From Ornithinimicrobium sufpigmenti (lineage in GTDB: Bacteria > Actinomycetota > Actinomycetes > Actinomycetales > Dermatophilaceae): a stretch of DNA of 64,000 nucleotides. The translations under genes were made by a program, and so were the position numbers. The stretch's first letter is position 1. Each line of letters begins with the position of its first letter. The stretch is from positions 2,666,001-2,730,000 of the forward strand of contig NZ_CP036403.1 of assembly GCF_004322775.1 (NCBI RefSeq), read 5' to 3'. Positions 1,112 through 64,000 of the stretch are shown piece by piece. The notes beneath the pieces are model-generated. The model was given only the letters and a program-made list of their open reading frames with translations. It made no database searches and had not been told where the DNA came from.

Positions 1112-3343
1112 ATGAGCACCGATGTGGACCCGTGGATCTGGCTGGAGGACGTCGAGGGTGACCGGGCGATGGGGTGGGTCCGCGAGCGCAGCGCCGCGGC
1201 TGAGGAGGCGCTCACCGGGCACCCTCTCTACCCGGACCTGCACGCCGGGATCCAGGACGCCTTGGAGGCACCGGACCGCATCCCGCTGGTCGGGCAGGCC
1301 GGCGAGCACCTCTACGGCTTCTGGACCGACGCAGAGCACCCGCGCGGGGTATGGCGTCGCACCAGCTGGGCGTCCTACCGCACCGAGGAGCCGCAGTGGG
1401 AGGTGCTGGTCGACGTGGACGCCCTCGCCCGGGAGGAGGACGTGCCCTGGGTGTGGCAGGGGGCCCAGCTGCTGCGGCCGCAGATGGACCGGGCACTGGT
1501 GCACCTGTCCCGGGGCGGGGCCGACGCCGGCACCACCCGGGAGCTGGACCTGACCACCGGGCGGTGGGTGTCCGCCCCCGAGGGTTTCGCCAAGCCCGAG
1601 GCCAAGGGCCGGCTGGTCTGGCGTGACCGCGACCACGTCTACCTCACCACCGCCGACGACCCCACCGGCGCGACCCGGTCCGGCTACCCGCGCACGGTGC
1701 GCCTCTGGCGCCGTGGCACGCCGCTCGCGGACGCGGCCGTGGTGCACACCATTCCCGAGGAGGACCTCGGGCTCTTCGTCGGCCACGACCAGCGCAGCGG
1801 CCGGACCGTGCTGCACCGCGGGCTGGCCTTCTACCGTGGCCAGACCCTGGTCCTGGACGACGCGAGCGAGCAGATCGAGGACGGGCAGGGCGAGGACGGC
1901 CAGGGCGAGGACAGCCAGGGCGAGGACAGCCAGGGTGGGGACGGTCGGGGCTCAGCCGCTCAGGGCGAGTCCCCAACGGGGCGGCCGGGGACAGTCCGGG
2001 CCCTCGACCTCCCCGTGACGGCGGAGGTCGACGTCCACCGCGACCACGTCGCCGTGCGGCTGCGGCACCCGTGGTCGCCGACGTCGGCGTCCTCGCCGTC
2101 CTCGCCGACGTCGTCGTCCCCCTCCCCCGACGGTCCCGAGCACCCAGCCGGCAGCCTGCTCGTCGCGCCGCTGTCCGCAGTGCTCGAGGACCCGGCGACG
2201 GCGGGATGGACCGCGGTGTTCACCCCGGACGACCGCTCCGCGCTGGTCGACCTCACCTGGACCAAGGACCGGCTGGTGACGACCGAGCTGGTGGACGTGC
2301 GGCATACCGTGCGCGTCCACGAGCGGGAGCCGGACGGCACCGGCTGGGTGAGCCGTGACCTGACCGAACTGCTCGACGTGGGCCTGCGCACGGTGAGCGT
2401 CTCGGCGGTCGACGACGACGAGAACGACGACCTGTGGCTGGTCACGACCGGCTTCCTCGACCCGATGACACTGTCCGTCGCCCGGCTCACCGACGGCGAC
2501 AGCAACACTGTCGACGTCGAGACCCTGAAGGCGGCGCCGGCGCGGTTCGAGGCCGAGGGCCTGGTGGTCACCCAGCAGTGGGCCGTCTCGGCCGACGGCA
2601 CCCGCGTCCCCTACTGGCAGGTCGGGCCGGCCGACCTGCCGATGGACGGCTCCACCCCCACCGCGGTCCATGGCTACGGCGGTTTCGAGCAGGCCCTGAC
2701 CCCTGCCTACGACCCGATCGTCGGCCGTTCCTGGCTCGCGCACCGGCACGTCCACGTGGTCGCCGGCATCCGCGGAGGCGGTGAGTTCGGGCCGCGGTGG
2801 CACCAGGCTGCGCTGCAGGAGGAGCGGCACCGGGCCTATGAGGACTTCGTCGCCGTGGCACGCGACCTGGTCGCCCGGGGCGTGACCTCGGTGGCCCGCC
2901 TGGGCTGCACCGGCCGGTCCAACGGTGGCCTGCTGGTCGGCAACATGATCACCGGCTACCCCGAGGACTTCGCGGCCGTCGTCTGCCAGGTGCCGCTGCT
3001 GGACATGCAGCGCTACCACCTGCTGCTCGCCGGGGCCTCGTGGATGGCCGAGTACGGCGACCCGGACGACCCCGAGCAGTGGGCCTCCCTGCAGACCTTC
3101 TCCCCCTACCAGCGCTTCGACCCCGACCGCCCCACGCCGGCGGTCTACCTGGCCACCTCCACGCGCGACGACCGCGTGCACCCGGGGCATGCCCGCAAGA
3201 TGGCGGCGCTGCTGACCGAGCACGACCGGGACGTCACCTACTGGGAGAACACCGAGGGCGGCCACGGCGGCGCCTCGACCCCCGAGCAGTGGGCCACCTG
3301 GCACGCGCTGGCCTGGGCGTTCCTGCACCACCGGCTGACCTGA
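1112..3343 (+). CDS. S9 family peptidase (prolyl oligopeptidase-like serine peptidase)
   Basis: A two-domain serine peptidase of 743 aa that would cleave short peptides, probably in the cytoplasm because no signal peptide is seen. The N-terminal part has the POP-type opening DPWIWLEDVEGD and a propeller region; the C-terminal alpha/beta-hydrolase domain starts near residue 500. The nucleophile elbow is GRSNGG (Ser603), the acid is in DDRVHPGH (Asp686/687) and the base is in GGHGG (His718). Two low-complexity insertions lie in the propeller: five 5-residue acidic units (residues 256-280) and a Ser/Pro-rich stretch near 320-342. The ATG at 1112 was chosen; a GTG at 1103 in the same frame is an alternative. 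The gene is monocistronic and ends before a strong terminator. Family assignment is secure, substrate is not. Confidence 0.9.
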   Translation: MSTDVDPWIWLEDVEGDRAMGWVRERSAAAEEALTGHPLYPDLHAGIQDALEAPDRIPLVGQAGEHLYGFWTDAEHPRGVWRRTSWASYRTEEPQWEVLVDVDALAREEDVPWVWQGAQLLRPQMDRALVHLSRGGADAGTTRELDLTTGRWVSAPEGFAKPEAKGRLVWRDRDHVYLTTADDPTGATRSGYPRTVRLWRRGTPLADAAVVHTIPEEDLGLFVGHDQRSGRTVLHRGLAFYRGQTLVLDDASEQIEDGQGEDGQGEDSQGEDSQGGDGRGSAAQGESPTGRPGTVRALDLPVTAEVDVHRDHVAVRLRHPWSPTSASSPSSPTSSSPSPDGPEHPAGSLLVAPLSAVLEDPATAGWTAVFTPDDRSALVDLTWTKDRLVTTELVDVRHTVRVHEREPDGTGWVSRDLTELLDVGLRTVSVSAVDDDENDDLWLVTTGFLDPMTLSVARLTDGDSNTVDVETLKAAPARFEAEGLVVTQQWAVSADGTRVPYWQVGPADLPMDGSTPTAVHGYGGFEQALTPAYDPIVGRSWLAHRHVHVVAGIRGGGEFGPRWHQAALQEERHRAYEDFVAVARDLVARGVTSVARLGCTGRSNGGLLVGNMITGYPEDFAAVVCQVPLLDMQRYHLLLAGASWMAEYGDPDDPEQWASLQTFSPYQRFDPDRPTPAVYLATSTRDDRVHPGHARKMAALLTEHDRDVTYWENTEGGHGGASTPEQWATWHALAWAFLHHRLT
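1877..1951 (+). repeat. 15-bp in-frame tandem repeat in the S9 peptidase gene
   Basis: Five 15-bp units encode EDGQG, EDGQG, EDSQG, EDSQG and GDGRG. They keep the reading frame and lie in a propeller loop, so copy-number change would alter loop length without breaking the enzyme. Confidence 0.75.
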
Positions 3344-3384
3344 CGGCACCAGCGGTCACGCCAGCCCCACCTGCAGCCCACTGG

Positions 3385-3420
3385 TCATGCGTGAGCCGGG
3401 AAGAACCGGCTCACGCATGA
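3385..3420. terminator. Bidirectional intrinsic terminator hairpin
   Basis: A perfect 15-bp inverted repeat (3385-3399 and 3406-3420) with a 6-nt gaagaa loop lies between the convergent S9 peptidase and GNAT genes. It has no long T tract, as is usual in high-GC actinobacteria. Confidence 0.85.
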
Positions 3421-3469
3421 CGAGGCGGCTCAGGGTGTGCTCAGGGTGTGGCTGCTGCGAGCGGTGCAG

Positions 3470-4312
3470 CTAGAGCAGGACGGTGGCGAAGGTGCCGGTC
3501 TGCTCCATACCGACCCGCCGGTAGGTGGCGACCGCGCGCTCGTTGAAGTCGTTGACGTAGAGGGTCACCACCGGCGCGACGTGGGCGATGGTGTGCTCGA
3601 CCACGGCCGCCATCGCCGGGGCCGCCAGCCCCTCTCCCCGCCGGTCCGGGTGCACCCAGACGCCCTGCACCTGGGCCACGCCGAGGGCGACGGAGCCGAG
3701 GTCGGCCTTGAAGACGACCTGGCCGTCCTCGACGCGGACGAGGGAGTGGCCCTGCTCGACCAGGGCGGCCACGCCTCGGCGGTATGCCGTGCCGTTGCCG
3801 CGGTAAGGGGGGTAGCCGATCTCCTCGGTGAACATCGCTGCCGCCGCGGGCACCAGCAGGTCCAGGTCGTCCATCGTCGCCACCCGCACGGCCGGGTCCA
3901 CGGGCATGCCCGCCGTCGAGGGCGGGATCCTGGTGGTCATCACCAGCTGCCTGGCCCGCACCTCCCGCGGCTGGCCCCAGTGCCGCTCGAGCCGGCCCCA
4001 CAGGTCCAGCACCTGGTCGGCCGGGCCGAAGACCGAGCTGGCGGTCGCCCGGCGCTTGACCACCTTGGCCGCCAGCGCCCCCATCGCCTTGGGGCTCGCC
4101 TGGACCGGCACCACGTTGGCCGAGCACCACACCAGCGCCTGGTCCTCCCCGGAGGTGTAGGCGAAGAGCGGGCCGCGGGTGCCGACCAGACCGGACTCCA
4201 GGATCCGCGCGGCCACGAAGACGTTGTTGACGGGGTCCTGCGCACAGATCTCCAGGGCGCGCTCGACGTCTGCCGGCCCGTAGGCCCGCACCGGACCCAG
4301 GCTGCGCAGCAT
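3470..4312 (-). CDS. GNAT family N-acetyltransferase with DUF4081 N-terminal domain
   Basis: Predicted cytoplasmic acyl-CoA-dependent N-acetyltransferase of 280 aa; the acceptor is unknown. The N-terminal half (DVERALEICAQDPVNNVFVAARI) is typical of the DUF4081 domain found before a GNAT domain in actinobacteria, and the C-terminal half has the acetyl-CoA signature VWVHPDRRGEGLAAPAM followed by LYVNDFNERAVATYRRVGM. From memory, the M. tuberculosis homologue Rv2867c lies next to ispG; here it is about 7 kb away, split off by the glp and other genes. The ATG at 4312 was chosen over a GTG at 4363 because CAGGCT lies 6 nt before it, matching the leaderless pattern seen elsewhere. It is convergent with the S9 peptidase. 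Confidence 0.85.
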   Translation of the reverse strand: MLRSLGPVRAYGPADVERALEICAQDPVNNVFVAARILESGLVGTRGPLFAYTSGEDQALVWCSANVVPVQASPKAMGALAAKVVKRRATASSVFGPADQVLDLWGRLERHWGQPREVRARQLVMTTRIPPSTAGMPVDPAVRVATMDDLDLLVPAAAAMFTEEIGYPPYRGNGTAYRRGVAALVEQGHSLVRVEDGQVVFKADLGSVALGVAQVQGVWVHPDRRGEGLAAPAMAAVVEHTIAHVAPVVTLYVNDFNERAVATYRRVGMEQTGTFATVLL

Positions 4313-4459: not shown

Positions 4460-6202
4460 ATGCAGCCACGCGCGCTGACCGGCCGCAGCCGGGACGAGGC
4501 CCTGCGCATCCTGCGGGAGAGCGCGGCGGGCGGCGAGCCGGTCGACGTGCTCGTCGTCGGCGGCGGGGTGACCGGCGCGGGGGTCGCGCTCGACGCCACG
4601 ACGCGGGGCCTGACCACCGTGCTGGTCGAGGCGGAGGACTGGGGCGCGGGCACCTCGCAGTGGTCCACCAAGCTGGTGCACGGGGGCTTGCGCTACCTGC
4701 AGATGCTCGACTTCAAGCTGGTGCACGAGGCGCTGACCGAGCGCGGCCTGCTGCTCAACACGCTGGCCCCGCACCTGGTCAAGCCGATGCCCTTTCTCAT
4801 CCCGCTGGAACACCGGCTGTGGCAGCGCGCCTACTACGGGGCCGGTGTCACCCTCTACGACGTGCTGGCCAACCTCATGCCGGGCCGGCGGGCCCTGCCC
4901 ATCCACCAGCACCGCACCCGCGCGGGGCTGCAGCGCGAGTTCCCGGCCCTGCGCCACCGCACCGCGATCGGGGCGGTGAAGTACTGGGACGCCACCGTCG
5001 ACGACGCCCGCCTGGTCGCCACGCTCGTGCGCACCGCCCACTCCTACGGTGCCCACCCCGCCAGCCGGACCCGCGTGACCGAGCTGGTCAAGGACGAGGA
5101 CGGCCGGGTCGTGGGCGCCCGGCTGCTGGACCGGGAGTCGGGCGAGGAGCTGGAGTGCCGCGCCCGGCACGTCGTGGCCGCCGCCGGCGTCTGGACCGAC
5201 GACGTCCCGAAGCTCGCGGACGTCGAGGGCGGGCTGCGGGTGCTGGCCTCCAAGGGTGTCCATCTCGTCGTGCCGAGGGAGAAGATCGACGGCTCCAGCG
5301 GGCTGTTCCTGCAGACGGAGCGCTCGGTGCTCTTCTTCATCCCCTGGGCCCGGTACTGGATCATCGGCACGACCGACACCCCGTGGGGTCTGGACCGCCG
5401 CAACCCCGTGGCCACCGCCGCCGACGTCGACTACCTGCTCGAGCAGGCGAACGCCGTGCTGACCACCCGGCTCACCCGGGACGACCTGGTCGGCTGGTAT
5501 GCCGGGCTGCGTCCGCTGCTGCAGCCGGGCACCAGGGAGGGGACGGACTCGGCGAAGGTGAGCCGGGAGCACACGGTGGCCAGCCCGGCGCCGGGCCTCA
5601 CCGTCATCGGCGGCGGCAAGCTGACCACCTACCGCGTCATGGCCAAGGACGCCGTGGACTTCGCGCTGGCCGACGAGCCCGGGGCGCTGGGCAGCATCAC
5701 CGACCAGATCCCGCTGGTGGGAGCCGTCGGGGAGACGGCGATGCGCCGCCGCATGCCTGCGCTGCGACGCCAGTTCGGCTGGAGCGAGCAGCTGACCGAC
5801 CACCTGCTGCACCGCTACGGCTCGCTGATCGAGGAGCTGCTCGAGCTCATCGAGGAAGACCCCTCGCTCGCCCGCCCGCTGCAGCACGCCCCGGCCTACC
5901 TGCGGGCCGAGATCGCCTACGCCTGCATCAGCGAGGGGGTCCTGCACCTGGAGGACCTGCTCATGCGGCGCACCCGGCTCGTCTACGAGGCACCCGACCA
6001 GGGCCGTTCCGCCGTGCCGGAGATCGCCGAGATCGCGGAGCAGTGGCTGGGGTGGGACCACGACCGTCTCGCGCACGAGATCGAGGCCTACACGGGGTGG
6101 GTCCGCGGTGTGTGCGCCGCGGCCGAGGAGGACACCGACGAGGCCGCGCTCGCGGCCTTCCACGCCGAGCAGGGCGCGGAGACGACGCAGAGCAGACGGT
6201 GA
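4460..6202 (+). CDS. glpD: Glycerol-3-phosphate dehydrogenase, FAD-dependent
   Basis: Oxidises sn-glycerol 3-phosphate to dihydroxyacetone phosphate and passes electrons to the quinone pool at the inner face of the membrane. The 580-aa protein has the FAD-binding VLVVGGGVTGAG near residue 30, the family sequence WSTKLVHGGLRYLQ, WIIGTTDTPW in the middle, and a C-terminal GlpO-type helical domain. The ATG at 4460 follows a good ribosome binding site (AGGAAGGGG). glpK follows on the same strand after an 80-nt gap of tandem repeats, forming a glycerol-use pair: glpK makes the substrate of glpD. No glpF or glpR is visible here. Confidence 0.93.
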   Translation: MQPRALTGRSRDEALRILRESAAGGEPVDVLVVGGGVTGAGVALDATTRGLTTVLVEAEDWGAGTSQWSTKLVHGGLRYLQMLDFKLVHEALTERGLLLNTLAPHLVKPMPFLIPLEHRLWQRAYYGAGVTLYDVLANLMPGRRALPIHQHRTRAGLQREFPALRHRTAIGAVKYWDATVDDARLVATLVRTAHSYGAHPASRTRVTELVKDEDGRVVGARLLDRESGEELECRARHVVAAAGVWTDDVPKLADVEGGLRVLASKGVHLVVPREKIDGSSGLFLQTERSVLFFIPWARYWIIGTTDTPWGLDRRNPVATAADVDYLLEQANAVLTTRLTRDDLVGWYAGLRPLLQPGTREGTDSAKVSREHTVASPAPGLTVIGGGKLTTYRVMAKDAVDFALADEPGALGSITDQIPLVGAVGETAMRRRMPALRRQFGWSEQLTDHLLHRYGSLIEELLELIEEDPSLARPLQHAPAYLRAEIAYACISEGVLHLEDLLMRRTRLVYEAPDQGRSAVPEIAEIAEQWLGWDHDRLAHEIEAYTGWVRGVCAAAEEDTDEAALAAFHAEQGAETTQSRR

Positions 6203-11481: not shown

Positions 11482-12648
11482 GACGGTGACGCTGGGGCTG
11501 CCGGCCGGCTGACCGTCGACGGGCTCGCCCATCTCCTCGGCGATGCGCATGGCCTCCTCGATGAGGGTCTCGACGATCTGGCTCTCGGGGACGGTCTTGA
11601 TGACCTCGCCCTTGACGAAGATCTGCCCCTTGCCGTTGCCGGAGGCGACGCCGAGGTCGGCCTCGCGGGCCTCGCCCGGGCCGTTGACCACGCAACCCAT
11701 GACTGCCACGCGCAGCGGCACCTCCATGCCCTCGAGCCCGGCGGTGACCTCCTCGGCCAGGGTGTAGACGTCCACCTGGGCACGGCCGCAGGAGGGGCAG
11801 GAGACGATCTCCAGCTTGCGCGGCTTGAGGTTGAGGCTCTGCAGGATCTGGTTGCCGACCTTGATCTCCTCCACCGGCGGGGCGGAGAGCGAGACGCGGA
11901 TCGTGTCGCCGATCCCCTTGGACAGCAGCGCACCGAAGGCGACCGAGGACTTGATCGTGCCCTGGAAGGCCGGCCCGGCCTCGGTCACGCCCAGGTGCAG
12001 CGGCCAGTCGCCACGCTCGGCGAGCAGCTCGTAGGCCTTGACCATGACGACCGGGTCGTTGTGCTTGACCGAGATCTTGAAGTCGTGGAAGTCGTGCTCC
12101 TCGAACAGGCTCGCCTCCCAGACCGCCGACTCGACGAGGGCCTCGGCGGTGGGCTTGCCGTACTTCGCCAGCAGCCGCTTGTCCAGCGAGCCGGCGTTGA
12201 CGCCGATGCGCAACGAGACGCCGGCGTCCTTGGCCGCCCGGGCGATCTCCCCGACCTTGTCGTCGAACTTCTTGATGTTGCCGGGATTGACCCGGACCGC
12301 GGCGCAGCCCGCGTCGATCGCGGCGAAGACGTACTTGGGCTGGAAGTGGATGTCGGCGATGACCGGGATCTGCGACTTCCTGGCGATGATCGGCAGGGCG
12401 TCGGCGTCGTCCTGGGTCGGGCAGGCGACCCGGACGATGTCGCACCCGGTCGCGGTGAGCTCGGCGATCTGCTGCAGCGTGCCGTTGATGTCGGTCGTCT
12501 GCGTCGTGGTCATCGACTGGACCGAGATGGGGGCGTCACCACCGACCTCGACCTTGCCGACGCGGATCTTGCGGCTCTGCCGCCTCGGCGCCAGCACGGG
12601 CGGCGGGGCGGACGGCATACCGAGCGAGATGGGGACACCAGCAGTCAT
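11476..12648 (-). CDS. ispG: Flavodoxin/ferredoxin-dependent 4-hydroxy-3-methylbut-2-enyl diphosphate synthase
   Basis: Penultimate enzyme of the MEP isoprenoid pathway: reduces methylerythritol cyclodiphosphate to HMBPP using a [4Fe-4S] cluster. The 390-aa protein shows the TIM-barrel opening [22 protein letters not shown] sequence and the C-terminal cluster ligands SCPSCG (Cys284, Cys287) and GCVVNGPGE (Cys319 plus the conserved Glu). The ATG at 12648 was chosen; one three codons upstream is possible. GACAAT lies 7 nt before the chosen start. It is the last gene of a minus-strand series dxr, rip1, ispG, the same order as in M. tuberculosis, and about 90 nt separate it from rip1, so it may also have its own promoter. 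Confidence 0.95.
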
Positions 12649-14070: not shown

Positions 14071-15279
14071 TCAGGTCCTGCGCGCGTGGGTGATGCGGGA
14101 GGCCGCGGCCTCGCGGGCCCAGGCGTCGGCCGCGAGCACCTGGTCCACGTCAAGGTCAACCGACGAGGACGACGTGGGGTTCCCCGCGTGCTCCTCGACC
14201 ACGGCGGCGACGGTGTCGACGATGCCGGTGAAGGGCAGCCGCCCGTCGTGAAAGGCGTCGACGCAGACCTCGTTGGCCGCGTTGTAGACGGCCGGGTAGG
14301 TGCCGCCCTCCCGCCCGACCTGCTCGGCCAGGCGCACCGCCGGGAACGCCTCGTCGTCGAGGGGGTAGAACTCCCAGGTCGAGGCCTGGCTCCAGTCGCA
14401 GGCGGGGGCGACGTCGGTGAGCCGGTCCGGCCAGGACAGGCCCAGCCCGATCGGGATGTGCATGGTCGGCGGGGAGGCCTGCAGGATCGTCGACCCGTCG
14501 TGGAACTCCACCATGGAGTGCACGACCGACTGCGGGTGGACCACCACCTCGATGGCCTCGAAGGGGACGTCGAAGAGCAGGTGGGCCTCGATCACCTCCA
14601 GGCCCTTGTTGACCAGGGTCGCCGAGTTCGTGGTGACGACCCGTCCCATGTCCCAGGTGGGGTGGGCAAGGGCCTGCCGGGGCGTGACGTCATGCAGCTG
14701 GTCTCGGGTCATCCCCCTGAACGGTCCCCCGCTGGCGGTGACGACGAGGCGGCGCACCTCCTCGCGCCGGCCCCCGCGCAGGCTCTGTGCGATCGCGCTG
14801 TGCTCGGAGTCGACAGGCACGATCTGGCCGGGTGCGGCGGCGCGACGCACGACCGGGCCCCCCACGATGAGCGACTCCTTGTTGGCCAGCGCCAGAGAGC
14901 TGCCCGCGGCCAGGGCCGCCAGGGTAGGGCGCAGCCCGATGCTGCCGGTGATGCCGTTGAGCACCACGTCGGCGCCGTTCCCGGCGACCTCCGACACCGC
15001 CTCCGGGCCGCTGCGCACCTCGGGCCGGTATGCCGTGCGCCCCGCCTCCCGCGCCGCCTCCCCGATGGCCTCGGTCAGCTCCTCCGCAGCGTCGTCGCGG
15101 GCCACCGCCACGACCTCGACCTGCAGCTGCACCGCCTGTCGCGCCAACAACCCCAGGTCACCGCCCCCGGCGGCCAGGGCGCGCACCACGAACCGGTCCG
15201 GGTGGTTCTCGATCACCTCGACGGCCTGGGTGCCGATCGAGCCGGTCGAGCCGAGCAGGGTCAGGGTACGGACACTCAC
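14071..15279 (-). CDS. dxr: 1-deoxy-D-xylulose 5-phosphate reductoisomerase
   Basis: Converts DXP to 2-C-methyl-D-erythritol 4-phosphate with NADPH and a divalent metal, the first committed step of the MEP pathway. The 402-aa protein has the NADPH-binding LLGSTGSIGTQAVEVI at its N-terminus, LANKESLIVGG, the metal ligand region PVDSEHSAI, ASGGPFRG, and ANEVCVDAF in the C-terminal helical domain. It starts with GTG at 15279 in a GTGA overlap with the stop of the EspG-like gene upstream, which places isoprenoid synthesis under the same transcript as the secretion-like module. rip1 follows after 12 nt. Confidence 0.95.
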   Translation of the reverse strand: MSVRTLTLLGSTGSIGTQAVEVIENHPDRFVVRALAAGGGDLGLLARQAVQLQVEVVAVARDDAAEELTEAIGEAAREAGRTAYRPEVRSGPEAVSEVAGNGADVVLNGITGSIGLRPTLAALAAGSSLALANKESLIVGGPVVRRAAAPGQIVPVDSEHSAIAQSLRGGRREEVRRLVVTASGGPFRGMTRDQLHDVTPRQALAHPTWDMGRVVTTNSATLVNKGLEVIEAHLLFDVPFEAIEVVVHPQSVVHSMVEFHDGSTILQASPPTMHIPIGLGLSWPDRLTDVAPACDWSQASTWEFYPLDDEAFPAVRLAEQVGREGGTYPAVYNAANEVCVDAFHDGRLPFTGIVDTVAAVVEEHAGNPTSSSSVDLDVDQVLAADAWAREAAASRITHARRT

Positions 15280-19915: not shown

Positions 19916-20062
19916 GGCTCCATCCAACACCCGGCCCCGAACGTGCGGAAGAGGGGTCCGGTGAGGCTCGCCGGGCGGCACGGGTCGCGCGCCGGACGGC
20001 CCCGCCGGCCCGTCGGTCGGGGGGCGAGCAGTTCGAGGACCGACGGTGTCTAGGGTCGGTGT

Positions 20063-38029: not shown

Positions 38030-38100
38030 TCCGCGTGCTGCGCGCATGTCGTGCGCGCGCTCGTGCGGGTATGCCGTGCGCGTGCGTCGTGCAGGTCCGC

Positions 38101-45418: not shown

Positions 45419-45543
45419 CCGTCCGGCACCGCTCGACGGCACCCGGGACGCGTCATGGCCTGTCCCGGGTGCCGCGGCATACCCTGGGTTTCCACCCGGT
45501 GCCGGCGGCACGGCCCCCACGACGCACGCAGGACGAGGACACG

Positions 45544-47137: not shown

Positions 47138-48220
47138 CTAGTAGAGGTGCCCGCGCAGGATCACCCGGTGCGGGTCGGCCATGGTCCGCACGTCCTCGCG
47201 CGGGTCGTCGCGGTAGACCACGATGTCGGCCGACTCGCCCTCGGCGATGCCGGGCCGGCCCAGCCACTCCCGCGCCGTCCAGGTGGCCGCCCCGATCGCC
47301 TCGAGGTTCGACATACCCGTCCTGGTCAGCGCCTCGACCTCCCGGGCCACCAGCCCGTGCGGCAGCTGACCACCGGCGTCGGTGCCCACGTAGACCGGGA
47401 CCCCGGCCTCGCGCGCCTTGGCCACGGTCTCGTACCGGCGCTCGTACAGGTCCATCATGTGGTCGGCGTACGTGGGGAACTTGCTCCGCCCCGCCTCGGC
47501 GAAGGCGGGAAAGTTGTCGATGTTGACCAGCGTCGGGACGATCGCGATCTGCTGGGCGGCGAAGGTGTCGATCGTCTCGTCGGTCAACCCCGTCGCATGC
47601 TCGATGCAGTCGGTCCCGGCCGCCGCGAAGTCGACCAGCGACTGCTCACCGAAGCAGTGCGCGGTCACCCGCGCCCCCTCCTCGTGCGCGGCAGCGATCG
47701 CCTCGGTGAGGATGTCCACCGGCCAGCAGATCCCGAGGTCGCCGGTCTCGCGGTCGATCCAGTCACCGACCAGCTTGACCCAGCCGTCCCCGTTGCGGGC
47801 CTCCTGACGCACGTACTCCACCAGGTCCTCCGGCTCGATCTCCCAGGCGAAGTTGCGCAGGTAGCGCCTGGTGCGGGCGATGTGACGCCCGGCGCGGATC
47901 AGCCGCGGGAGGTCCTCCCGCTCCTGCACCCACCGGGTGTCGGCGGGGCTGCCGGCGTCCCGCAGCAGCAGCGCGCCTGCCTCCCGGTCGGCGAGGGCAT
48001 GCTCCTCCGCGCGGGCGTCGTCGACCGCCCCGTGCGCCTCCAGCCCGACGTGGCAGTGGGCGTCGACCAGCCCGGGCACGGCATACCCCTGCACGGTCTG
48101 CACCTCCCCCGACGTGGGCGGGGTGAGGCTGACCACCCCGTCGATGACCCAGACCTCGTCCAGGACCTCCTCGGGACCGACCAGGACCTGGCCCTGGATG
48201 TGCAGCGCCGGTGCGCTCAT
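47138..48220 (-). CDS. Amidohydrolase family protein (imidazolonepropionase-like)
   Basis: A 360-aa metal-dependent hydrolase of the ureohydrolase/prolidase-like superfamily; substrate unknown. Metal ligands are seen as DAHCHVGLE after strand 1, VTAHCFGE and IEHATGL in the middle, and GTDAGGQLPHGL with the catalytic Asp near the end, then AIGAATWTAREWLG typical of imidazolonepropionase-like enzymes. The carboxylated Lys position is probably in WVKLVGDWID. The ATG at 48220 follows AGGAGG. It is convergent with aceB and divergent from the GNAT gene. Confidence 0.87.
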   Translation of the reverse strand: MSAPALHIQGQVLVGPEEVLDEVWVIDGVVSLTPPTSGEVQTVQGYAVPGLVDAHCHVGLEAHGAVDDARAEEHALADREAGALLLRDAGSPADTRWVQEREDLPRLIRAGRHIARTRRYLRNFAWEIEPEDLVEYVRQEARNGDGWVKLVGDWIDRETGDLGICWPVDILTEAIAAAHEEGARVTAHCFGEQSLVDFAAAGTDCIEHATGLTDETIDTFAAQQIAIVPTLVNIDNFPAFAEAGRSKFPTYADHMMDLYERRYETVAKAREAGVPVYVGTDAGGQLPHGLVAREVEALTRTGMSNLEAIGAATWTAREWLGRPGIAEGESADIVVYRDDPREDVRTMADPHRVILRGHLY

Positions 48221-48274
48221 CTCGCCTCCTTGCGGGTATGCCGTCCGCTCAGGCTAGCGAGTAGGTTCTGCCCT

Positions 48275-49054: not shown

Positions 49055-49642
49055 TCAGGGCGTGAGCACGCCCGCCTCTCGGGCCGGCTCGGCGTAGGCC
49101 GCCGCCAGGGAGTCGACGGTCTCGTGCGCGTTGAGACCGCTCGGGTTGGGCACCACCCAGAGCACCGCGCCCTCCAGCGGCTCGGGCTGGCGTCCGGCTG
49201 CGGCGGCGCGCACCCCGAAGGCGCTGCGGTATGCCGTGATCCCCGCCACCGCGACCACGCGCGGCCGCACCCTGCGCACGGTCCCGCGGAGCCGCTGGCC
49301 GCCCTGGTGCAGCTCCTCCCTGGACAGCTCGTCGGCGCGGGCCGTGGCGCGTGGCACCAGATTGGTGATCCCGATCCCCCGGCCGAGCAGGTGGGTGCGG
49401 TCCTCGTCGGTCATGCCGGCGGCGGGGTCGATGGCGTGCTCGATGATGCCGGCGCGCAGCAGCGCGGGATAGAAGCGGTTGACCGGATGGGCGAAGTGGG
49501 TCTGGGTGGCCGCGGTCCACAGCCCGGGGTTGATGCCGACGAAGAGCAGCCGCAGGGTAGACCCGTCGGCGGGCAGCAGGTCGGGCACCTCCCTGTCCCG
49601 GAAGGACTCCAGCTCGGCTCGGGTGAATCGTCGGGTCGCCAC
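49055..49642 (-). CDS. mug: Mismatch-specific uracil/thymine-DNA glycosylase (MUG/TDG family)
   Basis: Base-excision enzyme removing U or T mispaired with G. The 195-aa protein has LLFVGINPGLWTAATQTHFA with the MUG active-site Asn, HPVNRFYPALLRAGII, GIGITNLVPRATARADELS and the wedge motif VVPNPSGLNAHE. The GTG at 49642 was chosen because TAGGCT lies 7 nt before it and the fold begins there; upstream in-frame sequence is antisense-like and overlaps the M4 gene. It is probably monocistronic. Confidence 0.9.
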   Translation of the reverse strand: MATRRFTRAELESFRDREVPDLLPADGSTLRLLFVGINPGLWTAATQTHFAHPVNRFYPALLRAGIIEHAIDPAAGMTDEDRTHLLGRGIGITNLVPRATARADELSREELHQGGQRLRGTVRRVRPRVVAVAGITAYRSAFGVRAAAAGRQPEPLEGAVLWVVPNPSGLNAHETVDSLAAAYAEPAREAGVLTP

Positions 49643-52175: not shown

Positions 52176-53837
52176 TTACTTCTTGTCCTGGTCGCCGAGG
52201 AACTTCTCGAACCCGGCGGGCAGCTTCAGGCCGGCGAGATCACCGGGGCCGCCGTCACCGGCGCTGCCGGACGGCATACCGTCCTCACCCTGGCCCAGGG
52301 CGCCGAAGGCGCTCTCCAGCGAGGCCTCGCGCGCGGCCTGCGCCTTCTGCGCCGCCTCCTGCTCCTGCTGCGCGCGCTTGGCCGGGTTGCCGGACTTGCC
52401 CTTCTTCTTCTGCTGGGCCTTGCCGCGCTTGCCGCCGCCCGCGCCACCCATGCCCGGCATCCCCGGCATGCCGGGCATCCCCGGCATCCCGCCCTTCTTC
52501 AGCTGGCGCATCATCTTCTGCGCCTCGCCGAACCGCTCGAGGAGCTGGTTGACCTCCGAGACCGAGACACCCGAGCCGCGGGCGATACGGGCGCGGCGTG
52601 AGCCGTTGATCTGCTTGGGGTGGTTGCGCTCGAAGGGAGTCATCGAGCGGACCATCGCCTCGACCCGGTCGAACTCCTTCTCGTCCAGGGCGTCCAGCTG
52701 GGCGCGCATCTGCTGCATCCCGGGCATCATCCCGAGCATCTGCTTCAGCGAGCCCATCTTCTTGATCGCCGACATCTGCTGGAGGAAGTCGTTGAAGGTG
52801 AAGTCCTCCTCGGAGAGGAACTTGCGGGTCATCTCCTGTGCCTGGACCCGGTCGAAGGCCTTCTCGGCCTGCTCGATCAGGGTCAGCACGTCACCCATGT
52901 CCAGGATGCGCGAGGCCATCCGGTCCGGGTGGAAGAGCTCGATGTCCTTCACGCCCTCGCCCGTGGAGGCGAACATGATCGGCTGCCCGGTCACCGTCGC
53001 GACCGACAACGCGGCGCCACCGCGGGCGTCGCCGTCCAGCTTGGTCAGCACCGAGCCGGTGATGCCCACGCCGTCGGCGAAGGCCTTGGCGGTCTCCACC
53101 GCCGCCTGACCGATCATCGCGTCGATGACGAAGAGCACCTCGTGGGCGTTGGTCTCGAGCCGGATGTCGTGCGCCTGGCGCATCAGGTCCACGTCGACGG
53201 CGAGCCGGCCGGCGGTGTCGATGATGACCACGTCGTGGCCCTTGCGCCGGGCCTCCTCGACACCGTCGACGGCGACGTCGACCGGGTCGCCGAAGGAGCG
53301 GGTCCCCTCCCCCGACTCCAGGGCCGCGTCGTGACCGAAGACGTTGCCGCGCTCGGGCGCGAACACCGCGACCCCGGCCCGCTGCCCGACGACCTCGAGC
53401 TGGGTGACGGCGTTGGGCCGCTGCAGGTCGGCCGCGACGAGCAGGGGGGTATGCCCCTGGTCGGCCAGCCACCGGCCCAGCTTGCCGGCGAAGGTGGTCT
53501 TGCCCGATCCCTGCAGACCGGCCAGCATGATGACCGTCGGCGGGTTCTTCGCCAGGGTGATCCGGCGGGTCTGCCCGCCCAGGATCGAGACCAGCTCCTC
53601 GTTGACGATCTTGACGATCTGCTGCGCCGGGTTGAGCGCCTGGTGCACCTCGGCACCCAGGCCACGCTCGCGCACGGCGCCGGTGAACTCCTTGACCACC
53701 GGCAGCGCGACGTCCGCGTCCAGCAACGCCATCCGGATGTCGCGGATGGTCGCGTTGAGGTCGGACTCGGTGACGGTGCCCTTGCGCTTGAGGTTCTTGA
53801 AGGTCAGCGCGAGACGGTCGGAGAGGGAGTTGAACAC
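52176..53837 (-). CDS. ffh: Signal recognition particle protein Ffh
   Basis: SRP54 GTPase that targets membrane proteins to FtsY. The 553-aa protein has the N domain (FNSLSDRLALTFKNLKRKG), G domain with GLQGSGKTTFAGKLG, DTAGRLAVD, and TKLDGDARGG, and the Met-rich M domain ending in GGMPGMPGMPGMPGMGG, encoded by a 9-bp repeat. A C-terminal Lys/Gln/Ala-rich and Gly-rich tail of about 80 residues is added. It starts with GTG at 53837, with TATCCT 6 nt upstream (leaderless), sharing a promoter core with the MpaB gene. SRP RNA was not seen in the window. Confidence 0.95.
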   Translation of the reverse strand: MFNSLSDRLALTFKNLKRKGTVTESDLNATIRDIRMALLDADVALPVVKEFTGAVRERGLGAEVHQALNPAQQIVKIVNEELVSILGGQTRRITLAKNPPTVIMLAGLQGSGKTTFAGKLGRWLADQGHTPLLVAADLQRPNAVTQLEVVGQRAGVAVFAPERGNVFGHDAALESGEGTRSFGDPVDVAVDGVEEARRKGHDVVIIDTAGRLAVDVDLMRQAHDIRLETNAHEVLFVIDAMIGQAAVETAKAFADGVGITGSVLTKLDGDARGGAALSVATVTGQPIMFASTGEGVKDIELFHPDRMASRILDMGDVLTLIEQAEKAFDRVQAQEMTRKFLSEEDFTFNDFLQQMSAIKKMGSLKQMLGMMPGMQQMRAQLDALDEKEFDRVEAMVRSMTPFERNHPKQINGSRRARIARGSGVSVSEVNQLLERFGEAQKMMRQLKKGGMPGMPGMPGMPGMGGAGGGKRGKAQQKKKGKSGNPAKRAQQEQEAAQKAQAAREASLESAFGALGQGEDGMPSGSAGDGGPGDLAGLKLPAGFEKFLGDQDKK

Positions 53838-53859: not shown

Positions 53860-54771
53860 ATGGCCGATCCCATTCGCACCGCCCGCCGCCGGCTCGCCCA
53901 GGCGCTCCGCGACCGGGTCGCCGGTCCTGACGCCGAGCGTCGGGCGCACGCGATCTGGTTGGCTCCCGGCGAGCGTCGCTTCGCCCCGGACGACCCGATC
54001 TGCCGTGTCCAGGGGCACGCCGGCATGTACGCCGGCGGCATCCGCGCCCTGCTCCTGCAGTCGCTCCACCCGCTGGCCATGGCCGGGGTCGGAGAGCACT
54101 CCGGCTTCCGTGGGGACCCCTGGGGACGGCTGCAGCGCACCAGCGAGTTCATCGCGATGACTACCTTCGGCCCGCTGGAGCAGGCCGAGAAGATCCTCGA
54201 CCGGATCAACAGGGTGCACACCACCGTGGTCGGCACCGCCCGCGACGGCCGCCCCTACGACGCCACCGACCCGCACCTGCTGCGCTGGGTGCACGTCGCC
54301 GAGATCGACAGCTTCCTGCTCGCCCACCAGCGCTACGCCCGCATCCCGCTCACCCCCGCCGAGGCGGACCGGTATGTGGAGCAGGCCGCGTGGGCGGCCG
54401 GGCGCCTCGGCATCCCCGACCCGCCGGAGACGGTGGCCGAGCTGGAGGGCCAGCTGGCGGCATACCGGCCCGAGCTCGAGACGACCCCCGGCGCCCTGGA
54501 CGTCGCCCGCTTCCTGCTGCACGAGCCACCGCTGCCGGTCGCCGCGCGCCCGGGCTTCTGGCTCCTCGCCGTGGGTGCGGTCGAGATGCTGCCGGACTAC
54601 GCCCGCGAGCTGCTCGACCTGCGGCTCCCCGGCCCGCTGCGCGCCGCGGACGAGGTGGCGCTGCGGGTGCTGGCCCGACCGCTCGGCCGCGTCGGCACCG
54701 CAGCGGTCGGGTGGGCGCTGTCCGACCCGCAGGACCCGCGCAACAGCCAGGAGAGTTCCGCCGTGGCCTGA
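53860..54771 (+). CDS. Oxygenase MpaB family protein (DUF2236)
   Basis: A 303-aa helical protein of the MpaB/Lcp-like superfamily; characterised relatives bind heme and oxidise fungal or rubber-type isoprenoids, but the substrate here is unknown. It has GHAGMYAGGIRALLLQSLHPLAMAGV, then DPWGRLQRTSEFIAMTTFG, the heme-side HLLRWVHVAEIDSFLLAHQ and a C-terminal LRVLARPLGR. TACGTT is 6 nt before the ATG at 53860. It is convergent with ftsY and ends before a strong hairpin. Confidence 0.82.
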   Translation: MADPIRTARRRLAQALRDRVAGPDAERRAHAIWLAPGERRFAPDDPICRVQGHAGMYAGGIRALLLQSLHPLAMAGVGEHSGFRGDPWGRLQRTSEFIAMTTFGPLEQAEKILDRINRVHTTVVGTARDGRPYDATDPHLLRWVHVAEIDSFLLAHQRYARIPLTPAEADRYVEQAAWAAGRLGIPDPPETVAELEGQLAAYRPELETTPGALDVARFLLHEPPLPVAARPGFWLLAVGAVEMLPDYARELLDLRLPGPLRAADEVALRVLARPLGRVGTAAVGWALSDPQDPRNSQESSAVA

Positions 54772-57173: not shown

Positions 57174-57728
57174 TCACCTCAATCCTCGGGCGGCGTGTCC
57201 GCCGCGGTCCCCTTCCCGGCGGATCCGGGCCACGGTCTCCCGGCTGGAGGCGAGCACGCCTTCCGGCTCACCCAGTTCCTCCCGTAGCCGCAGCGCGGTG
57301 AGGGCCTGGGCCTCGGCGTCCGCCAGGCGGCCCTCGTCGAAGAGCGCCTTGGCCCGGTGCTGGCGCACGAAGGCGAGCATCCGTCCATCGGCGCCCCCGC
57401 CCTGCCCCGACGAGGCGAAGACCTCCTCGGCGGCGTTCAGCAGCTCGTGTGCCTCGGCATACTCCTCGCGCCAGTGGTGCACGTGCGCGAGCCGGACGGC
57501 CGCGGCGGCCCATCCGGGGGTCATCGGCTCCCGCTCAGCCAGGGCGCCCTCCCCCACCGCGAGCGCCTGGTCCAGCTCGCCGAGCATCCGCCAGAACGAG
57601 ACCGCGTGCGGGTCCGCTGGCGTCTCCGCCAGCCACTCGAGCGTGTCCTCCTCGGACAGCAGCTCCTCGCGCAGCGTCTCCCCGTCGATGACGTAGGCGG
57701 GAAACTCCGCGCCGCCGTAGACCTGCAT
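57174..57728 (-). CDS. TPR-like hypothetical protein coupled to smc
   Basis: A 184-aa soluble helical protein of unknown function. Helix pairs such as AAAVRLAHVHHWREEYAEAHELL and FVRQHRAKALFDEGRLADAEA have the small-large-aromatic spacing of tetratricopeptide repeats. The ATG at 57728 overlaps the smc stop (TGATG), so it is translated with SMC. It is not ScpA or ScpB, which are not in the window. A scaffolding role for the SMC complex is possible but only from context. Confidence 0.6.
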   Translation of the reverse strand: MQVYGGAEFPAYVIDGETLREELLSEEDTLEWLAETPADPHAVSFWRMLGELDQALAVGEGALAEREPMTPGWAAAAVRLAHVHHWREEYAEAHELLNAAEEVFASSGQGGGADGRMLAFVRQHRAKALFDEGRLADAEAQALTALRLREELGEPEGVLASSRETVARIRREGDRGGHAARGLR

Positions 57729-60700
57729 CAGGCTGGCTCCTTCTCCTGCTCCTGGTCCTGCTGGGGGTCCTTCTGAGGGGCGTTCTGAGGGGCCTGCTGG
57801 GGCCGGCCGCCCCGCGGGGCGACGTCGCGCACCCGTTGGCTGACGACGGTGGTGACACCGTCCCCCTGCATGGACACGCCGTACAGGGCGTCGGCGATCT
57901 CCATGGTGCGCTTCTGGTGGGTGATGACGATCAGCTGGGAGGAGTCGCGCAGCTCCTCGAAGAGGGTGATGAGCCGGCCGAGGTTGGTGTCGTCGAGGGC
58001 CGCCTCCACCTCGTCCATGATGTAGAACGGGCTGGGCCGGGCCTTGAAGATCGCCACGAGCAGGGCGACCGCGGTGAGCGAGCGCTCCCCGCCCGACAGC
58101 AGCGAGAGCCGCTTGATCTTCTTGCCCGGCGGGCGCGCCTCCACCTCGATGCCCGTCGTGAGCATGTTGGCGGGGTCGGTCAGGGTGATCCGCCCCTCGC
58201 CGCCGGGGAAGAGCCGGGAGAAGACCCGCTCGAACTGGGCGGCCGTGTCGTGGAAGGCCTCGGTGAAGACGCGCTCCACCCGCTCGTCAACCTCTCTGAC
58301 GATCTCCAGCAGGTCGACCTTGGACCGCCGCAGGTCCTCCACCTGCTCGGTGAGGAAGGTATGGCGTTCCTCCAGGGCGGCGAACTCCTCCAGGGCGAGC
58401 GGGTTGACCCGGCCCAGCTGCCCCAGGGCCCGTTCGGCCCGCCGCAGCCGCTTGTCCTGCTCCTCGCGGACGAAGGGCCGTGGCTCGGGGAAGTCGTCGG
58501 CGTCCGGGTCCTCGTCGGGGCCAGGGATGTGCGGCACGGGCAGCTGCGGGCCGTACTCCTCCACGAGGGTCTCCGGGTCGACGCCCATCTCCTCCAGGGC
58601 GCGGGCCTCGAGCGCCTCGATGCGGAGCCGCTGCTCCGCGCGGGCGATCTCGTCGGCGTGCACCGAGTCGGTGAGGTCGCGCAGCTCGTCCGCGAGGTTG
58701 CGGGCGCGGCTGCGGGCGACCGCGAGCGCCTGGTCGAGCTCGGCCTGGCCGGCCTGCGCCTGCTGCCGCACGGTGGCCGCGCTGGCCAGCGCCTGCTCGG
58801 TGAGCCCGAGCACGTACGCCGCACCCTGGCCGACAGCCTCGGCGGTGGCGCGCTCGTGCGCCCGCCGCGCCCGCCGCTGGGCTGCGCGCTCACGGGCGGC
58901 GAGCTCGTTGCGGGCAGCGGCCTCCAGCGCGTCGGCCCTCCCGGCGAGCGCCCTGGCCCGCTCCTCCTGGGTCCGGAGGGCCAGCCGCGCCTCGGTCTCG
59001 GCCGTCCGCGCCCGGGCAGCGGCTTCTGCCAGCCGCTCCCGCTGGGAGGTGTCCGGGTCCTCGGTGCCCTCCTGGGTGGCCAGCGCCTCGGCGTCGGCGA
59101 GGCGCTGCTCCAGCTCGGCCAGCTCGGTCCGGGTGGCGGCCAGGCTCTCCTCGGCCGCGGTGATCGCAGCGGTGGTCCGCTCGTGCTCGGCCCGCGCGGC
59201 CCGCATGGCCTGGCCGTGCTGGGAGAGCTGCTCGGCGACGGCGGTCATCCGCGCGTCGGAGTCGTGCAGGTCGTCCAGCGCGGCCTCGGCCTCGGCGATA
59301 GCGTGCTGCAGCACCTCCCTGGCCCCGGCGAGGGAGAAGGTCGCCGCCTGCGCCCGACGCTCCGCGGCCCGCACCCCCTCCTGCGCCTCGTCGAGGGCGG
59401 ACTGCAGCTCCAGCAGGCTCGGTGCGGCGGCCGAGCCGCCGTGCACCCAGCCCGGTCCGTAGACGTCGCCCTGGTCGGTCACGACGGTGATCCCCGGGGT
59501 CGAGCGCACCAGCGCGGCTGCGTCCTGCCCGTCCGGGACCAGCGCGACCCGGTCCAGCAGCCCGTGCACGGCTCTGGTGAGTGCCAGGTCCGGCGCGGAG
59601 ACGACGTCGGCGGCCCACACGGCATACCCGGGCAGGTCCGGCCAGTCGGCCCTGGGCTGCTCCTGCGTCCCGGCGGCGAGCTCGGGCACCAGCATCCCCG
59701 CCCGGCCCTGGTCCTGTTCCCGCAGCCAGCCCAGCGCCTGCTGGGCGGGCTCCAGCCCCTCCACGACGAGGGCCTCCCCCGCCCAGCCCAGGGCGGCGGC
59801 GATGGCCGCCTCACGGCCCGCCTCCACGGTCAGCTCGCTCGTCACGGTCCCGCGGATCCCGCTCACCGCCGACCGGTCGGCCTCGAGGAGCGCACTGGCA
59901 CCGTCGGTCCGACGCAGGGACAGGGCGAGCGCCTCGACCCGGGCCTGCAGCGCGGCCTGCTCGCCCTGGGCCTCGCGCAGCTCCGTCTGCCACCGCTGCA
60001 CCTGGGCCTCGGCGCTCTCGCGCTTCTCCTCGGCGACCTCGTAGCGGGCGTCCAGTCCCTCCTCGCCCTCCTCGACGTCCAGGACGGTGCCCTCCAGCGC
60101 CGCGAACTCCCGCTCGGCGGTGGCGGCCCGCTGCTGCACTGCGGCCGCCGTGGCCTGCAGCCGGGCGATCTCTCCCTCGCCCGCCTCGATCCGGGAGCGA
60201 CGGGCGGCGACCTGGCCGGCGAGCCGGGCCAGGCCCTCGCGGCGGTCGGCCGCGGCCCGCGCGAGCCGGTGCAGCCGGGCCTGCTCCTCGGCGTGCGCGG
60301 CCTCGGCCCGTCGACGAGTGGCCTCGGCCTCGTCAAGGGCGGTCGCCAGCTCGGCGACCTTGGCGAGCAGGGCGTCCTCCTCCGCGCGGACCTTCTCGGC
60401 CTGGGCGCGCAGCTGCTCGGGGTCGCGTCCGCCGGGACGTCCGGCGGCCTCGGCGCGCAGGTCCTCCTCCTCGGCCCCCAGCAGCCGCACCCGTTCGGCG
60501 GCCAGGTCGCGCAGGGCACGCAACCGTTCCAGGAGCGAGGACAGGGCGTACCAGTGGTCCTGGGCGGCCTGCAGCACCGGCGCCGACCGGGCCCGCTCCT
60601 CCTCCAGCTCGCCGACCTGGGCATCGGCGGCCTGGGCCGCGGCCTGCACCCGGGTGCGACGCTCGACGAGCGCCCGCTCGTCGGCCATCTCCTGCTCCAG

Positions 60701-61420: not shown

Positions 61421-61534
61421 GGCATCTCTTCGGCTGGCTTCTCTTCTCGCGGGCGCTGGCCCCGGTCACGATACCCGCGGGGTATGCCGTGCCACCGGAG
61501 GCGGGACGGCCGCCTCCCGGCGGCGGGGGCCCTC

Positions 61535-61833: not shown

Positions 61834-61839
61834 GGGCGC

Positions 61840-62871: not shown

Positions 62872-62927
62872 GCTCGGCACCCGCGCCGCTGCCTACCTGA
62901 CCAGCCGGGGTGAGGCAGGCTAGGGCC

Positions 62928-63257
62928 ATGACGCAGCTGCTCGTCTTCCTGCTCGGGACCCTGGTGGCCCTGATGCTGCTCGGCCACCTGGCCACCCCGC
63001 TGGGCGAGCGACAGCCGCTGCGCCGCTGGACGCCGGTCTACCTGATGGACCGGGTCCCGCACGCGATCACCCTCTTCAGGGACGCGGGTGCCCTGCAGCG
63101 CAGGCGTTTCGAGGACGCCGCGGCCGAGCGCGAGTCCCAGGTCAAGGATCAGGGACGCCGGGTCGAGGACGCCGTGGACGGTGAGGGCTCGGGGGGCTTC
63201 GACGGCCGCGAGGACAGGGGGGACCTGGAGGGCGAGGACCCCCGCGGACGCACCTGA
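62928..63257 (+). CDS. Hypothetical small membrane protein
   Basis: A 109-aa protein of unknown function with one N-terminal transmembrane helix ([19 protein letters not shown]), a short basic stretch [14 protein letters not shown], and an acidic/charged C-terminal tail. The ATG at 62928 was chosen; a GTG at 62910 is in frame. Its last 109 bp overlap the 3' end of mutM on the other strand. The tail may simply reflect the antisense reading of the longer mutM end. Confidence 0.5.
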
Positions 63258-64000
63258 CAGCGCGGGCAGAAGTGGGAGGAGCGGTTCATGAACTGCTCCC
63301 GGCGCACCGTCGACCCGCAGCGGGGGCAGGGCAGCCCGTCCTGCCCGTACACCGCGAGCGACCGGTCGAAGTATCCGCTGGCACCGTTGACGTTGACGTA
63401 GAGGGCGTCGAAGCTGGTCCCGCCCTGACCCAGCGCCTCGGTCATCACGTCGGCCGCATGGCCCAGCAGGCGGCCCAGTGCGGGCTTAGTGAGTGCCGAG
63501 GCCGGGCGCAGACCGTGCACCTGCGCCCGCCACAGGGCCTCGTCGGCATAGATGTTGCCGATGCCGCTGACCACCGTCTGGTCCAGCAGGAGCCGCTTGA
63601 CCGCGACGTCCTTGTCCTTCATCCGGCGCGCGACCCCGGCCGCGTCGAAGGCGGGCTCCAGCGGGTCCGGGGCGATGTGCAGCACGGGCTCCGGTATGCC
63701 GTGCACGTGGGCCCCCGCGTCGCCCTGCAGGTCGTCCCGCGGTGCGACCGGGACGGCATACCGGTCCTCGTGCAGGGTGGTGAGCGCCAGACCGCCGAAG
63801 GTCCGCTGGTCCACGAAGCGCAGCTGCGGCCCGTCGTCGGCGAAGTCGAAGCTGGCGTGCAGGTGCTTCTCGCGGGGGACGTCCGGCGCCTGCACGAGGA
63901 GCTGCCCGCTCATCCCGAGGTGGACGACGAGGGCGTGCGGGTCGTCGTCCGGCGGGTCCAGGACGAGCCAGAGGTACTTGCCGCGTCGGTCGGCCGCGAG
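63149..64000 (-). CDS. mutM: Formamidopyrimidine-DNA glycosylase (5' end beyond window)
   Basis: Bifunctional glycosylase/lyase excising 8-oxoguanine and formamidopyrimidines. The window shows the C-terminal 283 residues; the catalytic N-terminal Pro lies off the right edge. The frame is open to the edge with [28 protein letters not shown], the H2TH region [37 protein letters not shown] and the zinc finger CPRCG...FCPRCQ with all four Cys. After CQ a Ser/Pro/Arg-rich tail of about 35 residues continues, antisense to the gene at 62928; most MutM proteins stop within a few residues of the zinc finger. In other actinobacteria rnc lies just upstream. Confidence 0.92.

Follow-up and report, generated by a model that had tools for sequence, protein, structure and literature searches.

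Sequence-marked DNA uptake is documented for the Pasteurellaceae and Neisseriaceae (PMC7811141), and a 2025 review cites Neisseria as departing from the rule that uptake is blind to sequence (PMC12236230). The DNA uptake sequences (DUS) of the Neisseriaceae are dispersed asymmetric words of 8 to 12 bp with ∼1000 to 2000 copies, most of them within genes. They form dialects around a common core, occur as inverted pairs near terminators, are conserved beyond their surroundings, and are rare in newly acquired DNA (PMC3630211, PMC2397512). The uptake signal sequence (USS) of the Pasteurellaceae is likewise an iterated asymmetric word, present on both strands with no general orientation bias, in particular reading frames and as inverted intergenic pairs (PMC2346458, PMC7811141). 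A comparable word, GGTATGCC, is dispersed over a 64-kb stretch of an actinobacterial chromosome, referred to here as the window (positions 2,666,001 to 2,730,000 of genome G000, a single contig of 4,169,359 bp). Its core, GTATGCCG, is common in numerous genera of a single actinobacterial family, and none of the other families sampled has it in abundance. The word probably functions like a DUS, as the recognition sequence of a system for uptake of, or preference for, self DNA.

Two further systems serve as points of reference. Transformation of the actinobacterium Micrococcus luteus requires ComEC and Flp/tad genes, and comEA-comEC and tad clusters are features shared with the genomes described here, which belong to the same phylum; "uptake sequence" is not a term in the main text of that report (PMC4322843). 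HIP1 of cyanobacteria is an octamer highly iterated over the genome; it is palindromic and associated with methyltransferases (PMC4390886), whereas the word described here is asymmetric, varies in dialect, and forms inverted pairs where genes end. Among the matches listed for open-licence PMC articles, by title and start of the abstract, there is no report of an uptake sequence in this phylum, and none of those listed for the 8-mer itself is bacterial and genome-wide by title.

Abundance and form of the word

The original prediction had counted 28 copies of GGTATGCC in the window, 14 per strand, 20 of them the full GGTATGCCGT. Exact counting returns the same numbers, with copies spanning positions 2301 to 63762 and 10 copies of GGTATGCCGT per strand, and the genome-wide count, which had been proposed as a check, indicates that the observation was even understated. 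In 100 dinucleotide shuffles of the window, the word appears 0.72 times on average and at most 4 times. Across G000, 518 forward and 525 reverse copies add up to 1043, compared to 27 (10 and 17) for the reversed string as a control. GGTATGCCGT is found 247 and 236 times, with 0 and 2 for its control, and the form GGTATGCCG 981 times. GGTATGCC is ∼1.75 times denser in the window (28 per 64 kb) than in the genome as a whole (1043 per 4169 kb).

A 464-kb sample of G000, consisting of 20 evenly placed 20-kb stretches and the window, defines the core of the word as GTATGCCG, with 157 copies in full context; the window itself contains 31. The core is preceded by G in 114 of the 157 copies and followed by T in 78 and by C in 40. 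Its commonest one-base variants carry G at base 2 (76 copies) or G at base 4 (48 copies). The core is asymmetric and not a palindrome of the HIP1 type.

Independence from codon usage

Genes in the 464-kb sample were called mechanically from open reading frame length and GC content by codon position, which yields 368 kb of coding DNA (79%) and makes the frame counts approximate. About three quarters of the copies of GGTATGCC (87 of 119) lie within called genes and 32 outside. The genic copies use all six frames, unevenly, with 34 of the 87 in the (G/R)-Tyr-Ala frame. Synonymous shuffling within genes (100 runs) retains a mean of 10.6 copies (standard deviation, 3.4; largest, 19) compared to the 87 real ones. 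The same procedure predicts 2.1 copies of GGTATGCCGT and 12.2 of GTATGCCG, where 39 and 120 are present; the control CCGTATGG occurs 3 times with 4.7 expected. Rare codons are concentrated in the word: the core fully contains 53 of the 190 TAT and 17 of the 70 ATA codons of the sampled genes. Codon usage is thus no explanation for the frequency of the word. The original prediction had argued from copies in several frames and in intergenic DNA, and from the rare codons that these impose, that the DNA word is selected and not the protein. Each of these points stands, the conclusion fits the whole-genome and comparative tests, and a frequency equal to the codon-aware expectation, named beforehand as a refutation, is not what was found.

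Distribution and dialects

In a sample of 396 genomes from the order, the 362 genomes outside the window's family contain at most 14 copies of GGTATGCCGT and at most 22 of the related form GTATGCCGCG, for which controls reach 24. Sampling of 396 genomes from the phylum gives at most 65 copies of GTATGCCGYG in the 392 that lie outside the family, the maximum occurring in a 7.5-Mb genome with a control count of 33. Within the family, the same pattern occurs 501 times in G000, 1328 times in G040, and 226 times in G057, with 8 copies in the wordless G073. None of the order's other sampled families is rich in the word; the family of Micrococcus is not identified by name among them. By genus, two Phycicoccus genomes, two Knoellia genomes, and Metallococcus carri contain 89 to 391 copies of GGTATGCCGT, and Streptomyces, Serinibacter, Nocardioides, and Herbiconiux genomes contain 1 to 5.

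Comparison with related genera, also suggested earlier, shows the word to be widespread in the family. Counts of GGTATGCCG in 149 genomes of 53 genera, with classes tallied by hand, reach at least 100 in 88 genomes (32 genera), 35 to 99 in 10, and at most 34 in 51; the largest is 2198, in G485. Controls are raised in some of the 88 word-rich genomes, as in G409 with 245 copies and a control of 118. Ornithinimicrobium cerasi carries 13 copies of GGTATGCC in one 21-kb locus (L002) and is placed inside the genus of G000 on the ComM tree, so that G000 belongs to Ornithinimicrobium in the broad sense. A contig labeled as an acidobacterial metagenome-assembled genome (L001) encodes a DprA 70% identical to that of the window and contains two copies of GGTATGCCGT in 11.5 kb; it is probably a mis-binned actinobacterial contig.

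Dialects were sought by de novo k-mer search, with ∼20 to 140 kb read for each wordless genome. Other word-bearing genera show the same core with a different tail, GTATGCCGCG, in G464, G482, and G476; G482 has GTATGCCGT besides, and G040, from the genus of a named Phycicoccus, contains 763 copies of GTATGCCGCG and 274 of GGTATGCCGT. G452 had seemed wordless, with 11 copies of GGTATGCCG. In this genome, 31 kb of coding DNA contains 27 copies of GGATGCCG compared to 3.3 expected, and 40 kb overall contains 34, with 17 copies on each strand, all six frames, and three +/- pairs. On the ComEC tree, G452 is the sister of the word-bearing G461 with a support of 100/100. The assumption that wordless genomes merely lost the signal is therefore wrong for G452.

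Two further candidates are not claimed as dialects. GTACGCCG in G450 (19 copies compared to 4.8 expected) is no stronger than the top words of signal-free genomes, and GTACGGCG in G483 (56 compared to 17.0), partly the palindrome GCCGTACGGC, hardly exceeds generic codon-context words; both may be further dialect steps, although they lie within the background of such searches. G483 (L134 to L138 and L199) also contains CGCCGTACG 49 times in 120 kb, in six frames and partly as the same palindrome, with 8 copies in 120 kb of its congener G451 and 5 in 464 kb of G000. This could represent either a dialect that has diverged or an independent signal. A sequence unrelated to the core, CGAAGGGG, is overrepresented in genes of the related wordless genomes G525 (L139 to L143, L189, and L212) and G089/G213 (L129, L187, and L188), with 40 copies compared to 10.3 and 20 compared to 4.0 after synonymous shuffling. 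The neisserial AT-DUS begins with ATGCCGT (PMC3630211), a motif that GGTATGCCGT also contains; this is taken as coincidence with no homology implied.

Conservation and turnover

About 20 kb around comM were aligned for the window and 20 congeners, 19 of these word-bearing. At thirty aligned positions, one or more of the 21 genomes has GGTATGCCG, the number of genomes ranging from 1 to 12 per position. When word-bearing genomes are compared in ordered pairs, retention of the complete word is seen at 668 of 1572 places, compared to 330.5 predicted by flanking 9-mers in the same phase, a ratio without a P value because genome pairs share ancestry. Random loss in relatives, the other outcome named as a refutation, does not agree with words that outlast their flanks in this way. 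Single comparisons are small, with 7 of 10 words retained from the window to G430 (4.4 expected) and 0 of 5 to G012. Toward the wordless congener G022, the word is retained at 0 of 54 places with 7.3 expected.

G022 is nested among word-bearing species on the ComM tree. On a tree built from ComEC of 32 genomes, of which 18 bear the word and 14, still including G452, were scored as wordless, 9 changes of label are required, 8 of them forced by well-supported branches. Shuffled labels need 10.7 changes on average, so possession of the word is only loosely clustered on this tree. Repeated loss or change of dialect fits best, and horizontal spread of the word is possible. The comEC of G022 runs into the end of an 8504-base contig and so gives no support to the idea that this genome lost the word because the gene broke.

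Orientation and inverted pairs

With origin and terminus placed opposite each other at any position of the chromosome, no more than 96 of the 179 core copies sampled fall into the more populated strand class, compared to a mean of 101 under random orientation. Equal strands (518 and 525 copies genome-wide) and the lack of leading-strand bias argue against a polarity of the type of Chi or FtsK-orienting polar sequences (KOPS), as the balanced orientation in the window had already suggested.

In G464 and G482, 13 +/- pairs of the core are found, all intergenic and 12 of them with a hairpin-like spacing of 20 to 27 bp. Two more from other genomes bring the intergenic +/- pairs to 15, of which 10 sit 14 to 38 bp past a stop codon. 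Pairs inside called genes number two in G476 and one in G000. In total, close pairs in the other genera do not exceed chance (24 compared to 22.8 expected); these pairs are nonetheless ordered in orientation (15 +/-, 6 -/+, and 3 in the same orientation) and in spacing. Inverted terminator-like pairs are thus seen in G464, G482, and two further loci, and not in G476 or the window's genus. The window contains two inverted pairs, at 36433 to 36473 and 63693 to 63762, with start-to-start distances of 33 and 62 bp; neither shows the tight hairpin spacing found in other genera.

Scarcity in acquired DNA

A prophage-like element of ∼40 kb splits the comEC gene of G000 after approximately residue 30 of the Competence domain. 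This element contains one copy of GGTATGCCG compared to 9.4 predicted from the genome mean, and 20 kb of its flanks contain 6. The 20-kb stretches of G000 with less than 71% GC contain 1, 1, 1, 0, 0, 3, and 6 words, and the other sixteen contain 3 to 11. By this one prophage and the stretches split by GC content, the word is scarce in recently acquired DNA. In G017, comEC is split over ∼40 kb at the same point as in G000. Matches start at residues 27 to 30 of the Competence domain in G502, G519, and G468 and at residue 29, in pieces, in G539. comEC seems to be a repeated target of insertion within the family.

Competence genes

ComEC is found in 145 of the 149 family genomes and in 20 of 22 further congeners. 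ComEA is present at every one of the 18 comEC loci of the first comparison, which included 7 wordless ones, and adjoins ComEC at all 31 compared later. T2SSE ATPases occur in 148 of the 149 genomes; a cluster near position 446,742 of G000 encodes TadA- and TadB-type domains, followed by small open reading frames that resemble TadE/F by eye, one of which was checked and has no Pfam match. The type IVa marker PilM occurs in only 5 of the 149 genomes, two of which have at least 100 words. The search for further competence genes advised by the original prediction thus yields ComEA, ComEC, and Tad-type ATPases. Its citation of comM and dprA holds as far as both genes are present in the window; by themselves they lend no support, as wordless relatives also have competence genes.

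None of the correlates considered follows the word. ComEC and the T2SSE ATPases are near universal, and the type IVa pilus is too rare. Genes exclusive to word-bearing comEC loci (0 of 14 wordless) reach only 4 to 5 of 17, and a small TadE/F-like gene of tad-1 is found in 5 of 10 word-bearing and 1 to 2 of 9 wordless loci, as for a fast-evolving protein. In G008, whose genome is 74% complete, comM (G008:C1:340732-342250) lies in three pieces, two of them with in-frame stops.

Interpretation and alternatives

The genome-wide excess, the dialects, and the conservation support the earlier proposal of an uptake-like or other genome-wide signal, with uptake itself proposed by analogy to DUS. A surface DNA receptor, either an exported Tad/Flp-type pilin or ComEA, would bind double-stranded DNA carrying GTATGCCG with lineage-specific flanks. 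Word-bearing DNA would then be imported and recombined more often than wordless DNA, and words could accumulate or persist in the core genome through biased import (molecular drive), selection for conspecific exchange, or both. A change of receptor would be followed by the word throughout the genome and so produce dialects. Differences from DUS are the unrelated phylum, the GC-rich monoderm hosts, Tad-type genes with no general type IVa pilus genes, and the word itself, as GTATGCCG differs from GCCGTCTGAA except for the common ATGCCGT; no ComP-like receptor is known for the actinobacterial word. Word, phylum, and cell envelope also differ from those of USS. With moderate confidence, the word can be regarded as a third, independently evolved uptake sequence system, located in a Gram-positive phylum, with a Tad/Flp-pilus or ComEA receptor, single-base dialect drift over approximately thirty genera of the family, and repeated loss.

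Several observations weigh against a DUS-like function. ComEC, ComEA, and Tad ATPases are equally common in wordless relatives, so their presence alone is no support, and no gene near comEC (17 word-bearing and 14 wordless loci) or tad-1 (10 and 9) separates the two groups as a receptor candidate. The interruption of comEC in G000 means that this strain may not be competent now. At least some wordless genomes show no related word: one-base neighbors of the core are not outstanding in G022, G400, G225, G524, G463, G365, G440, and G258, the coding DNA read for each of the last five amounting to no more than 14 to 33 kb. On average, the window's words exceed their flanks only slightly in per-base identity (0.814 compared to 0.793). 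Even spacing of the kind known from Haemophilus USS is weak at best, barely above random in five sets (P values of 0.02 to 0.70), and the window's genus has no excess of hairpin-like pairs (5 and 2 close pairs, with 4.5 and 6.5 expected).

The main rival is a DNA methyltransferase site or other mark of self and non-self, kept at high density since the modification serves repair, regulation, or protection. HIP1, which is linked to orphan methyltransferases, offers a precedent (PMC4390886). A highly iterated, strand-symmetric octamer that is restricted to one family, repeatedly lost, and scarce in a prophage would suit such a mark, which is nevertheless unlikely: the word is asymmetric, its dialects shift one base at a time, and the terminator-like inverted pairs have no obvious role in methylation. 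Restriction sites, moreover, are usually avoided rather than enriched. The same dialects and inverted pairs of other genera favor uptake over the binding of a nucleoid or chromosome-organizing protein. This possibility, or that of a dispersed regulatory or terminator element, agrees with the genome-wide spread, with conservation beyond the flanks, and with pairs past genes in two genera that could be terminators. It is nonetheless very improbable given that some three quarters of the copies are genic and in every frame, that placement turns over between species with no replication polarity, and that the window's genus lacks the pairs.

A Chi-like site, at which a nuclease of the RecBCD, AddAB, or AdnAB type stops degrading self DNA and starts recombination, is an improbable explanation, though Chi is likewise an octamer with such a density (here one per 2 to 4 kb), a bias for the core genome, scarcity in prophages, and lineage-specific versions. 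Chi tends to be co-oriented with replication, whereas the word shows no bias under any placement of origin and terminus, is equal on both strands, and forms inverted pairs at gene ends. Chance, base composition, and codon usage are ruled out as causes by the shuffles, the reversed-string control, and synonymous shuffling. The large share of a single frame among the genic copies would be expected of a by-product of composition, codon-pair usage, or a common peptide, yet six frames and noncoding DNA carry the word and more than a quarter of TAT codons lie inside it; such an origin has a negligible probability.

Features of the window and of the comEC insertion

The copies in the window, the two competence genes located there, and the element in comEC are listed in Table 1.

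Table 1. Positions of the word, its core, and associated genes (window coordinates unless a contig or locus is given)
Feature	Position	Strand	Remark
GGTATGCC then GC	2301..2308	-	exact match
GGTATGCC then GT	3781..3788	+	exact match, full GGTATGCCGT
GGTATGCC then GG	5496..5503	+	exact match
GGTATGCC then GT	12614..12621	-	exact match, full GGTATGCCGT
GGTATGCC then GT	15027..15034	+	exact match, full GGTATGCCGT
GGTATGCC then GT	17887..17894	-	exact match, full GGTATGCCGT
Core GTATGCCG without 5' G	20061..20068	+	exact match
Core GTATGCCG without 5' G	20449..20456	+	exact match
GGTATGCC then GC	20472..20479	+	exact match
GGTATGCC then GT	24511..24518	-	GGTATGCCG present here in 11/21 genomes
GGTATGCC then GT	28625..28632	+	exact match, full GGTATGCCGT
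GGTATGCC then GT	29170..29177	-	present here in 10/21 genomes
GGTATGCC then GT	30101..30108	+	present here in 12/21 genomes
dprA, transformation recombination mediator	32575..33804	-	Pfam DNA_processg_A, E 6.5e-67; context, not proof
comM, Mg-chelatase-type helicase	33705..35237	-	Pfam Mg_chelatase, E 1.5e-85; context, not proof
GGTATGCC then GC	36433..36440	-	starts 33 bp before copy at 36466, in inverted orientation to it
GGTATGCC then GT	36466..36473	+	exact match, full GGTATGCCGT
GGTATGCC then GT	36964..36971	-	present here in 10/21 genomes
GGTATGCC then GT	38068..38075	+	exact match, full GGTATGCCGT
Core GTATGCCG without 5' G	40494..40501	-	exact match
GGTATGCC then GT	42867..42874	-	exact match, full GGTATGCCGT
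GGTATGCC then GA	43616..43623	+	exact match
GGTATGCC then GC	45476..45483	-	exact match
GGTATGCC then GT	48080..48087	-	exact match, full GGTATGCCGT
GGTATGCC then GT	48235..48242	+	exact match, full GGTATGCCGT
GGTATGCC then GT	49228..49235	+	exact match, full GGTATGCCGT
GGTATGCC then GT	52273..52280	-	exact match, full GGTATGCCGT
GGTATGCC then CC, so not the 8-base core	53448..53455	+	exact match
GGTATGCC then GC	54459..54466	-	exact match
Core GTATGCCG without 5' G	57455..57462	-	exact match
GGTATGCC then GT	59621..59628	-	exact match, full GGTATGCCGT
GGTATGCC then GT	61481..61488	+	exact match, full GGTATGCCGT
GGTATGCC then GT	63693..63700	+	exact match, full GGTATGCCGT
GGTATGCC then GT	63755..63762	-	exact match, full GGTATGCCGT
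Prophage-like element in comEC	G000:C1 ~1,161,300-1,201,300 (L113:6311 to L115:6307)		phage-like genes
Large serine recombinase of comEC prophage	L115:4835-6292	-	

Implications

If the word does act in DNA uptake, uptake sequences would have arisen in the Actinobacteria with a different pilus and would represent a recurrent evolutionary outcome. The family would then provide a new set of genera in which presence, absence, and dialects of the word could separate molecular drive from selection for exchange among kin. A search for the receptor would be tractable, since no fewer than 8 switches between possession and lack of the word are forced by the ComEC tree. Adding the word to donor DNA might ease the laboratory transformation of these environmental bacteria.

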